The translations under genes and the position numbers were made by a program. The notes beneath the pieces were generated by a model. That model was not told the DNA's origin, ran no database searches, and was given only the letters and a program-made list of their open reading frames with translations. Below, in pieces: positions 13,983 through 51,885 of a stretch of 64,000 nucleotides of DNA; the stretch's first letter is position 1; every line of letters starts with the position of its first letter. The DNA comes from Nitrospinota bacterium (GTDB taxonomy: Bacteria > Nitrospinota_A > UBA7883 > JACRLM01), in the NCBI GenBank assembly GCA_016208975.1, contig JACQXA010000004.1, positions 1,799,015 through 1,863,014 of the forward strand, read 5' to 3'.

Positions 13983-14131
13983 GTGGCGGCCCAGTTTGAA
14001 AGCACAGGAGAGATTCTTCGTTTCCGCTCAGGATGACGACATAAAAGCCGTTTAAAGTTGTCATACTGAACGAAGCGCAAGCGAAGTGGAGGACCTGTTT
14101 GTTAATTGGGATTCAAGCTGAAACACTATCC
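13983..14131 (-). repeat. Decayed, inverted copy of the 151-bp MITE-like repeat
   Basis: About 149 bp aligning along its length with the reverse complement of the three intact copies (24067, 26355, 51735). Recognisable blocks are CCAGTTTGAAAGCACAGG, GAGATTCTTCG, CTCAGGATGACGACATAAAA, and GATTCAAGCTGAAACACTAT at the far end. Its terminal repeats have several mismatches and I see no clear target-site duplication, so it is an old insertion. It fills most of the 226-bp gap between the lipoprotein gene and hisI. Confidence 0.8.
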
Positions 14132-23926: not shown

Positions 23927-24020
23927 TGGCGGAAGATGAAGGGAGTCGAACCCTCCGGGGGCTTTTACGCCCCCGCCTGGATTTGAAGTCCAGCCGCATC
24001 ACCGGACACGCGCATCTTCC
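23927..24020 (-). tRNA. selC: tRNA-Sec (selenocysteine, anticodon TCA)
   Basis: 94 nt on the minus strand including the encoded CCA end. The acceptor stem is 8 bp (GGAAGATG with CATCTTCC), as in bacterial tRNA-Sec. The anticodon stem-loop CTGGACTTCAAATCCAG gives anticodon TCA, identical to E. coli selC in that region. A long variable arm (CGGGGGC-GTAAAA-GCCCCCG) and a T arm with GGTTCGACTCC follow. These features together identify selC rather than a serine tRNA. It shows that the genome decodes UGA as selenocysteine; selA, selB and selD are outside the window. Confidence 0.97.
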
Positions 24021-24066: not shown

Positions 24067-24217
24067 GGTGGTGTCTCAGTTTGAATCTCAAATAATAGAC
24101 AGATCGTTCACTTCGCTGGCGCTTCGCTCAGGATGACAATGTTATCAACGGCTTTTATATTGTCATTCTGAGCGTAAGTGAAGAATCTCCCCTGTACTTT
24201 CAAACTGAGACACTACC
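24067..24217. mobile_element. Intact 151-bp MITE-like element, copy A
   Basis: Ends are terminal inverted repeats: left GGTGGTGTCTCAGTTTGAA, right TTCAAACTGAGACACTACC (one mismatch). Inner arms also pair (CTCAGGATGACAAT with ATTGTCATTCTGAGC), so most of the element can fold into one hairpin. An exact 8-bp duplication, GGATTTTC, flanks it at 24059-24066 and 24218-24225. It encodes no protein, so it needs a transposase from elsewhere. It sits between tRNA-Sec and the response-regulator gene. Confidence 0.92.
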
Positions 24218-26354: not shown

Positions 26355-26505
26355 GGTGGTGTCCCAGTTTGAATCTCAAATAACAGACAGATCCTTCACT
26401 TCGCTTGCGCTTCGCCCAGGATGACAATGTTATCAACGGCCTTTATATTGTCATTCTGAGCGTAAGTGAAGAATCTTCCCTGTACTTCCAAACTGGGGCG
26501 CCACC
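26355..26505. mobile_element. Intact 151-bp MITE-like element, copy B
   Basis: Same length and sequence as copies A and C, with a few substitutions, including several in the ends (GTCCCAG for GTCTCAG on the left and CTGGGGCGCC for CTGAGACACT on the right, which keep the ends largely complementary). Flanked by GGCCTTCC on the left (26347-26354) and GGCCTTGC on the right (26506-26513), an 8-bp duplication with one change. No coding capacity. Confidence 0.9.
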
Positions 26506-49081: not shown

Positions 49082-49370
49082 GGCCTTCATCTCCTTAGCT
49101 AACAAACTTATCGGCGAACCGGGAAATTTATATAACTGAAAAAATATTTTGCATAAGCGGCGCCATTACATAAATTGCCGGTTTTACAATGGGTTGATAC
49201 TTTGCCGCTGGTTTTAGAAGTAAGAGCCTCCAAAAAAGGTGGACTAAATTAAGACAAAAGGCGACGTAATTTGTCAACAGTGGTGAAGGTGATTTAAAGG
49301 CTTTTTGCGCCCGGGTACAGCAATCATGGGTGATAGGGGTTGAAAACCCAATAACCGGCTTAAAAGTGTT
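49082..49370. other. Intergenic region, no gene seen
   Basis: About 290 bp, AT-rich, between the small 53-aa gene's start and the terminator of the SelW-like gene. It must hold the promoter of the 53-aa gene; no clear elements were found. Confidence 0.45.
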
Positions 49371-49400
49371 AAAAACCTGGCGCCGCGGCGCCAGGTTTTT
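49371..49400 (-). terminator. Perfectly palindromic terminator after the SelW-like gene
   Basis: A 30-base perfect palindrome: AAAAACCTGGCGC meets its complement, ending TTTTT on both strands. On the minus strand it overlaps the TAA stop of the selenoprotein gene and ends that transcript. Confidence 0.88.
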
Positions 49401-49629
49401 AACTTTTCCCCAAGGCGGAAAGTTTTTCCACTATTTCGGCATTATCCGGGAACCTGCCTGCCTCATATTTGGAGAAAACAAGCTCCCCATCGGCATGAAC
49501 GTCAAAAATCCCGCCAGATCCGGCGGTCATTTCCGGAATAATACCCAGTTTCGCCTTCAATTCGTCCGCCAGACTGGCGGCGCGTGGAAGGTAGTTTCAC
49601 TGGCGGCAATATGTTATGGACACTTTCAT
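49399..49629 (-). CDS. SelW/Rdx-family selenoprotein with in-frame UGA
   Basis: 76 residues when the TGA at 49597-49599 is read as selenocysteine. The protein starts MKVSITYCRQ, then U, then NYLPRAASLADELKAKLG, then GGIFDVHADGELVFSKYEAG and RFPDNAEIVEKL. This is the complete Rdx (SelW/SelT/SelH) thioredoxin-like pattern: CxxU redox site after the first strand, N-Y-x-P-R-A helix, and the G-x-F-x-V...E-x-G-R-F-P end. Past the TGA the frame stays open to a TAA with full family similarity. A stem-loop CCGCC-AGUCU-GGCGG starts 16 bases after the UGA, where bacterial SECIS elements lie. tRNA-Sec is at 23927. The gene follows the GDT1 gene by 11 bases. Probable thiol redox function; substrate unknown. 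Confidence 0.92.
49566..49599 (-). promoter_or_regulatory. Bacterial SECIS-like element
   Basis: The UGA codon, a 16-base spacer, and a 5- to 6-bp stem CCGCC/GGCGG with loop AGUCU. The E. coli fdhF SECIS has an apical loop of very similar sequence (GGUCU), and the G-U pair needed for SelB binding is present, three bases further from the UGA than in fdhF. Confidence 0.65.
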
Positions 49630-49640
49630 ATTCACCTCTC

Positions 49641-49910
49641 CTACGGTTTTATTAGATACATGACGCCGAATACTATGAAAAGGATCCCAGCCCCCCGGTG
49701 CAAGAACGCCGGTGGCAAGTATTGCGAAAGGACGCTTCCAAACACTGTGGCGATGGCGGAGGTTGCTATAAGGGCTGTGGCAGAGCCAATAAACACGCTC
49801 CACCTGGAACTCTCGCCCGATGAGAACGCCAGCGTGGCCAGCTGGGTTTTGTCTCCCAGTTCCGCCAGGAAAATCGTAATGAATACGGATGATATGACCT
49901 TTAAATCCAC
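49641..49910 (-). CDS. Half-size GDT1/TMEM165-family transporter
   Basis: 89 residues from a GTG with AAAGGGG 5 bases upstream; a TTG 15 bases earlier is less likely. The signature AELGDKTQLATLAFSSG is the metal-binding motif of the GDT1/UPF0016 family, Mn2+ or Ca2+ exporters. Most members have two such repeats in about 190 residues; this one has a single repeat with three helices and would have to act as a dimer. Ends normally at a TAG. Its neighbour 11 bases downstream is the SelW-like selenoprotein, and the IspH-UbiA gene lies downstream of both on the map but is read toward them from its own start. Confidence 0.88.
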   Translation of the reverse strand: MDLKVISSVFITIFLAELGDKTQLATLAFSSGESSRWSVFIGSATALIATSAIATVFGSVLSQYLPPAFLHRGAGILFIVFGVMYLIKP

Positions 49911-49941
49911 CAAAACCCCTTTCAAAACTTCATGTTAACGA

Positions 49942-51684
49942 TCAGGATATCAAAAGCCACGTGATGGCCAGCAATCCGGTGAAATGAAATACGCCATCCA
50001 CCACCAGGTCAAAAGCCAGCCCGCGGTCTATAGTCCGGCGGTGGTATAGCCACAAGTACATGGCAGTGTAGCCTATGGATAGCAATAGCGCGTAGGCAAA
50101 TGGGCCCACCAGCCCCGAGTATGCCGCCGAAACCAACATGCATGCAAGCCCCGTGGTTACCATCGCCAGGAATGTTTTTGAGCCAGTGATACCTATGAGT
50201 ATGGGGATTGTTTCTCTTCCAACTACTCTGTCGCCCCGAATGTCCCTGATGTCTGACAATACGGACCGGATGTAAACCATGGTAAAAGCGAACACGAAGG
50301 CCACTGCGGCGGCCGGAAAACTTACATCCCCCGGCGCCGACATGGCGGGCATGGCCACAGTCACAGCGGCCCAGCCCAATCCCGCGAAAATGTCCTTTGA
50401 GGCTGGTATATCCTTAAGCCTGTGGATGCGGATGATTCTGGTTTTCGGGAACCATTTTACGGTGTACGCAAGTCCCATGAAGGTCGCCATGGTGTATATT
50501 AGCGCCGCGCTTGCATCCAAGTACGCCGCCAAAGCCAGCCCCATCACCGCCGAAAGGCCCGCCAGAACACCCATCAACCGGCCCCAGCGTTGATAGAACC
50601 GGGTTTTTTCCGGCTCATTGTGCTTGAAGGTCTGCAAGTCGTTCAACTGGTTTAACACGTGCATGGAGAATATATACATGGCCGCCACCGCCGCCGGGCG
50701 CCATCCGGGCTCGTAACCTGCCAGCATGGCGTTGGCCAGCGTTAAAAGGCCCGCGCCCGCGCCAAGGTGCAGGTTGCTTACCACCCACGCCTCCGCCAGC
50801 CGGGCCAACAGCCCCCGCGCCGGCCCTTTCCTGCCTTCGCGGATTCCGGCCACTCGGTCGCGGACCCGTTCTATCATCCAGGTCGGCGTGGAGGCTCCTG
50901 CGGTGATGCCTATCCTTTGGTATTTAAGGATTTCGGCCGGATCCAGCTCCGTTTCGGTTTCCACCAGTGATACGCCCACGCCCGTTTCCCGGGCAATGGC
51001 CGCAAGCCTTGCGGTGTTGGCGGAGCTTTTTCCGCCTACCACAATTAAAAGGTCCACCTCCCCGGCAAGCCTTAAAACCTCGTTCTGCCGCTCATCTGTA
51101 GCGTCGCAGATGGTGTTAGTGATGTCGGCGTTGGGGAACCGTGCCTGTATGGCCTCCACAATGGCTTTATATTTGGTTATATCGCAGGTGGTTTGCGCCA
51201 CCACGCATACGCTGTCCATTTGAGGCAAACCGGCAACTTCCTCCACCCTTGCGACGACGTGCCCCTTCCCATCGGCGAATCCCAACAGCCCCACAACCTC
51301 CGCATGGCCCAGGTCGCCGATGATAATGGTGGAGAAACCTTTAGCCGCGTGCTTTTTGATTATGCCTTGCACCTTTGCCACCAGCGGGCAGGTGGCGTCG
51401 TTAATGGTCAGTCCTTTTTCTTTCAGTCTCCGGCGCACCTGGGGGGTAACGCCGTGGGTGCGGATGATTACCGTGCCGTGATCCAGCGTGGTGGCGTCTT
51501 CCAGCGCGAAGATGTCCTTACCCTCCAGGGTCTCTATCACCTGGGGGTTATGGATAAGCGGGCCGTGGGTGTACACGGGCCCATCGGCATTATTGGCGGT
51601 GTCCATGGCGATATCCATGGCCCTCTTGACACCCCAGCAAAAACCCGCCGTGCGGGCGATTTTTATTTCTTCTTTTCCGGACAT
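49942..51684 (-). CDS. ispH: IspH-UbiA fusion protein
   Basis: 580 residues from the ATG at 51684. Residues 1-285 are 4-hydroxy-3-methylbut-2-enyl diphosphate reductase: the three 4Fe-4S Cys are in RTAGFCWGVKRA, NDATCPLVAKV and NTICDATDERQ, with HGPLIHNP, RTHGVTP and GGKSSANTARL. This enzyme makes IPP and DMAPP in the MEP pathway. Residues 300-580 are a UbiA-type membrane prenyltransferase: LNQLNDLQTFKHNEPEK and YIRSVLSDIRDIRGDRVVGR, with about eight helices. The fusion joins isoprenoid precursor formation to a prenyl-transfer domain. MITE copy C lies 50 bases upstream of the start. UbiA acceptor unknown. Confidence 0.9.
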   Translation of the reverse strand: MSGKEEIKIARTAGFCWGVKRAMDIAMDTANNADGPVYTHGPLIHNPQVIETLEGKDIFALEDATTLDHGTVIIRTHGVTPQVRRRLKEKGLTINDATCPLVAKVQGIIKKHAAKGFSTIIIGDLGHAEVVGLLGFADGKGHVVARVEEVAGLPQMDSVCVVAQTTCDITKYKAIVEAIQARFPNADITNTICDATDERQNEVLRLAGEVDLLIVVGGKSSANTARLAAIARETGVGVSLVETETELDPAEILKYQRIGITAGASTPTWMIERVRDRVAGIREGRKGPARGLLARLAEAWVVSNLHLGAGAGLLTLANAMLAGYEPGWRPAAVAAMYIFSMHVLNQLNDLQTFKHNEPEKTRFYQRWGRLMGVLAGLSAVMGLALAAYLDASAALIYTMATFMGLAYTVKWFPKTRIIRIHRLKDIPASKDIFAGLGWAAVTVAMPAMSAPGDVSFPAAAVAFVFAFTMVYIRSVLSDIRDIRGDRVVGRETIPILIGITGSKTFLAMVTTGLACMLVSAAYSGLVGPFAYALLLSIGYTAMYLWLYHRRTIDRGLAFDLVVDGVFHFTGLLAITWLLIS

Positions 51685-51734
51685 CTTTCTATTGTGCCAC
51701 ATGGCCCGCCCCGGCCCAAGAGTACCGGCGTTTT

Positions 51735-51885
51735 GGTGGTGTCTCAGTTTGAATCTCAAATAACAGACAGATCCTTCACTTCGCTTGCGCTTCGCTCAGG
51801 ATGACAATGTTATCAACGGCTTTTATATTGTCATTCTGAGCGTAAGTGAAGAATCTCCCCTGTATTTTCAAACTGAGACACTACC
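51735..51885. mobile_element. Intact 151-bp MITE-like element, copy C
   Basis: Identical ends to copy A (GGTGGTGTCTCAGTTTGAA and TTCAAACTGAGACACTACC) and the same 151-bp length. Exact 8-bp target duplication GGCGTTTT at 51727-51734 and 51886-51893. It sits in the divergent intergenic region between ispH-ubiA and the heme-binding cyclase gene and may affect both promoters. Confidence 0.93.

Follow-up and report, generated by a model that had tools for sequence, protein, structure and literature searches.

Does a TGA within a short reading frame close a fragment of ten residues, or does it stand for selenocysteine (Sec) inside a complete gene? The question is raised by the minus strand of a 64,000-nucleotide stretch of a Nitrospinota genome (the window), where a frame at 49399-49629 continues through an in-frame TGA at 49597-49599. 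We conclude that this TGA is almost certainly read as Sec, resulting in a complete SelW-like redox protein. Specifically, we hold with high confidence that the gene encodes a SelW-like selenoprotein of the Rdx family, most likely a thiol/selenol oxidoreductase, in which Sec is inserted at codon 11 in a SelB-dependent manner. The case for Sec is carried by homology, the conserved TGA and the machinery of the genome.

The gene and its product

Read directly on the minus strand, 49629-49399 gives MKVSITYCRQ-TGA-NYLPRAASLADELKAKLGIIPEMTAGSGGIFDVHADGELVFSKYEAGRFPDNAEIVEKLSALGKS-TAA, running from an ATG at 49627-49629 to a TAA at 49399-49401 and encoding 76 residues, of which Sec is residue 11. A ribosome-binding-like GGAGAGG (49635..49641, minus strand) lies 5' of the ATG and shares one base with the stop of the upstream gene. 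The product contains a CxxU motif (C8-R-Q-U11), whose last codon is TGA or a Cys codon in relatives, followed by NYLPRA (residues 12-17) and GRFP (residues 58-61). The preliminary description of this locus had given the frame and these three motifs correctly, except that it took GRFP for the end of the protein; the motif is present, but 15 residues follow it, the last of them GKS before the stop.

The product belongs to the Rdx family, as that description had predicted. With Cys replacing the TGA, it scores 70.7 bits against the Pfam Rdx model PF10262 (cut-off 22.6, 1.2e-19) and 59.3 bits against the NCBIfam SelT/W/H model TIGR02174 (cut-off 34.2). A third model, NCBIfam NF041051 (SelTWH_Campy, SelT/SelW/SelH family (seleno)protein), is matched over the full length at 86.2 bits with C scored instead of U, 1.8 short of its equivalog threshold of 88, and the product is therefore filed under the wider SelT/SelW/SelH (Rdx) family only. 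The structure model, for which 26 window and locus proteins were aligned, reached a pLDDT of 94.8. Its best PDB matches by Foldseek are 2fa8, 2obk, 2ojl, 2p0g and 3dex, with TM mostly 0.85-0.90, so that the top matches are all SelW-related; mouse SelW and thioredoxins come next after these bacterial structures. In the model, strand 1 spans residues 3-8 and helix 1 residues 14-28, and C8 and residue 11 are predicted to lie between them, just where strand 1 ends, which is where a thioredoxin-like fold and the Rdx/SelW-like family usually carry their redox motif.

As a control for chance, all frames in the window that span a TGA were considered. An open frame on both sides was found for 247 TGAs, and gene-like codon usage on both sides for three of these, selW included. 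The other two were rejected as candidates: one is located in front of a PRC-barrel gene, the domain of which lies entirely past the TGA with no match across it, and the other has no family match.

Sec-decoding machinery and the codon in relatives

The host genome (2.97 Mb in four contigs, 100% complete) holds the full set of selA, selB, selD and tRNA-Sec expected where bacterial selenoproteins are made. The tRNA-Sec (UCA) lies in the same window, as first described, at 23927..24020 on the minus strand, and is called by both ARAGORN and Rfam (76.9 bits). The preliminary description named a genome lacking selA or selB as evidence against its reading and proposed looking for selA, selB and selD elsewhere in the genome; all three were found above their curated cut-offs, at 569, 344.9 and 353.6 bits respectively. 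The selD gene (L018, G000:C4:1005397-1006353) carries an in-frame TGA of its own, and SelD of this genome is probably itself a selenoprotein. The gene at 49399-49629 is the single convincing Rdx copy in the genome.

Within the phylum, TGA occupies the same codon in six of 24 genomes, the host and five others, which disposes of the suspicion that resequencing would show TGC or TGT here. Cys forms occur in three of the 24, two of which also carry a Sec form. The alignment with Cys-bearing Rdx proteins that had been proposed places Cys at this position, and the in-frame UGA is aligned with Cys or UGA in homologues, as in other selenoproteins. Of the 79 loci recovered when one genome per species was scanned, 78 have TGA as codon 11, a ratio that is no census of Sec versus Cys because only one of the two peptide patterns used could match TGA forms. 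These loci come from many phyla, mostly from Planctomycetota and Deltaproteobacteria/Myxococcota-type records. A separate search of 385 genomes gave TGA in 64 of 80 matches (counted from the table, with the codon position checked for part of the matches only), and TAA or TAG without TGA in none. Among the first 60 genomes, selB exceeded its cut-off in eight of the nine that have the TGA form and in 21 of the remaining 51 (Fisher p 0.01); a TGA-bearing genome with no selB over the cut-off, G021, is 81% complete and in 600 contigs. One TGA relative (L032) and G018:C32 are one and the same contig, identical in the stretch after the UGA. Another genome carries one Sec copy and three Cys Rdx copies, two of the latter in tandem (L011 and L012, G023:C18:177961-178521).

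The hairpin after the UGA

A SECIS-like hairpin lies at 49564..49582 on the minus strand, its stem formed by 49576-49580 with 49566-49570 and its loop, AGUCU, by 49571-49575, starting 22 nt after the UGA (21 nt between). The published rules for bacterial SECIS elements ask for a stem of 4-16 bp, a loop of 3-9 nt, a distance of 16-37 nt from the UGA, a G within the first two loop positions and an MFE of at most -7.5 (PMC13188914). The hairpin noticed in the preliminary description is real and fits this model, with a 6-bp stem counting A-U, a loop read as A-GUC-U and a distance of 21-22 nt. Its energy is -8.6 kcal/mol alone, and -18.9 kcal/mol (z -3.4) over 50 nt. Two outer positions at each end, unpaired in the window, are paired in many relatives.

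Covariation was assessed in 78 TGA sequences aligned without gaps from the UGA, over seven pairs (columns 18-24 with 30-36). Standard pairs fill 80.8% of cells, and two-sided changes account for 54 cells, versus 16.6 +/- 3.4 in shuffles (0/500), with all slid versions lower; these pair counts are inflated by sequence relatedness and coding constraint. Among the swaps in mid-stem are C-G replaced by U-A and G-C replaced by U-A. The strict single-hairpin limit of -7.5 kcal/mol is passed by 39 of 79 TGA sequences.

With the hairpin in place, SelB carrying Sec-tRNA(Sec) would bind it and deliver Sec at codon 11. The product would be a thioredoxin-like protein of 76 residues with C8-x-x-U11 ending its first strand, most likely a small thiol/selenol oxidoreductase, the redox role being suggested by the motif. 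What the computation shows is the reading frame and its family, the fold as predicted, conservation of both the TGA and the paired hairpin, and the presence of the machinery; Sec insertion, expression, this role and any partners of the protein are inferred.

Alternative explanations

The interruption might reflect a dead gene or a sequencing error, in which a Cys codon (TGC or TGT) had mutated to or been misread as TGA, and Cys homologues with TGC or TGT at this codon do exist within the same order. Against this, the TGA is found in independent genomes of many phyla, and compensatory changes maintain the hairpin behind it; the remainder of the frame is undamaged, with gene-like codon usage before and after the TGA. 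Conservation of the TGA refutes this explanation in practice, and we regard it as extremely improbable. That the frame is open does not depend on what the UGA encodes, which would also suit readthrough with Trp or some other standard residue, as well as a genetic code that treats UGA as sense. Homologues have Cys and not Trp at the position, the genome carries tRNA-Sec together with selA, selB and selD, and the adjoining LytB-UbiA gene has a TGA as its stop codon (49942-49944), so that TGA also terminates genes here. We give a standard residue at codon 11 hardly any credence.

A further doubt concerns the hairpin and leaves Sec itself in place, since the fold might be a mere by-product of the conserved PRAASLA peptide and GC-rich codons, with another signal driving Sec insertion. 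Hairpins that fit the rules are indeed common: among all 1513 TGAs on both strands of the window, 76 (~5%) meet them at -7.5 kcal/mol and 54 have a hairpin as good as that of selW, so the hairpin alone is no evidence. Against a by-product, both sides of the stem change together even where the amino acids differ, for example GCUUCC..GGAAGC in L063, and the five Cys copies lack any hairpin that reaches -6 kcal/mol. A by-product is very improbable, and a SelB-dependent Sec at codon 11, with the hairpin as its signal, is the reading that we retain.

Genomic surroundings and origin

The TAA of selW lies inside a strong terminator, as the preliminary description had it, namely a symmetric hairpin of 16 pairs at 49368..49403 on the minus strand (GTTAAAAACCTGGCGCCGCGGCGCCAGGTTTTTAAC; -28.1 kcal/mol, z -6.3). 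Upstream, a half-size GDT1 protein of 94 aa with a single repeat is encoded at 49641..49925 on the same strand, with 11 nt separating its end from the selW ATG; the two genes probably share one transcript. Beyond it, LytB (IspH) and UbiA domains are fused in one 605-aa ORF (49942-51759, minus strand). Neither the GDT1 half gene nor the LytB-UbiA gene adjoins any of the other Rdx copies in relatives.

Also present in the window is an interspersed repeat, about 142 bp in length and bounded by 15-bp terminal inverted repeats (GTGTCTCAGTTTGAA), with the appearance of a MITE or a palindromic element. Copies lie at 24071-24213, directly 5' of tRNA-Sec, and at 51739-51881, with degenerate pieces near 14025-14126 and 26359-26462. 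At least about 40 near full-length copies with 96-100% identity are present in the genome, a lower bound, as 40 of 124 candidates were scored. The listed TTG start of the LytB-UbiA ORF falls within one copy, and the true start is therefore probably further in.

The top-scoring named relative of the product is from a planctomycete, at 65% identity. A tree of 86 proteins groups the two with weak support (88/20) and no starred set, and the 76-residue product offers too few columns for the order of Sec and Cys or for transfer to be read from it. That a Planctomycetota-like donor passed the Sec form to this lineage horizontally, in an event independent of the other Sec copies of the phylum, is conceivable and rather unlikely. 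Copies recovered in a search of plasmids were all below 60% identity.

Comparison with known systems

Bacterial SelW-like selenoproteins have been known since 2005, and the gene described here is one more member. The SelW-like family, with CxxU, was the most abundant selenoprotein family in the Sargasso Sea survey, which called its function unclear (PMC1088965), and likewise in the GOS marine metagenome survey (PMC2398784). Geobacter, Desulfotalea, Symbiobacterium and others have such proteins (PMC1794560), and SelW genes were overlooked by annotation in Epsilonproteobacteria (PMC4607533). Because the family is so well known, the importance implied in the preliminary description was overstated, and the gene raises no new mechanistic question. 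A search of the available library for papers on selenoproteins in Nitrospina gave no hit. It is plausible that standard gene calling overlooks this selW; NCBI already has a comparable model in NF041051. The locus may well serve as a clear illustration of how table-11 calling cuts an entire gene to ten residues. Additionally, a SelW-like selenoprotein and a full Sec-decoding set are added to a sparsely sampled phylum, represented here by 24 genomes.

The product shares its fold and the position of the CxxC/CxxU site with the bacterial Rdx structures 2fa8, 2obk, 2ojl, 2oka, 2p0g and 3dex at 27-38% identity, and with mouse SelW (2npb) at 23%. In the two bacterial structures aligned residue by residue, 3dex and 2fa8, Cys stands where the product has Sec. 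The SelW-like selenoproteins already described from bacteria (PMC1088965, PMC1794560, PMC2398784) are, as here, small CxxU proteins of the SelW/Rdx type with a SECIS just after the UGA, and the sole difference found is the host lineage, the phylum with Nitrospinota.
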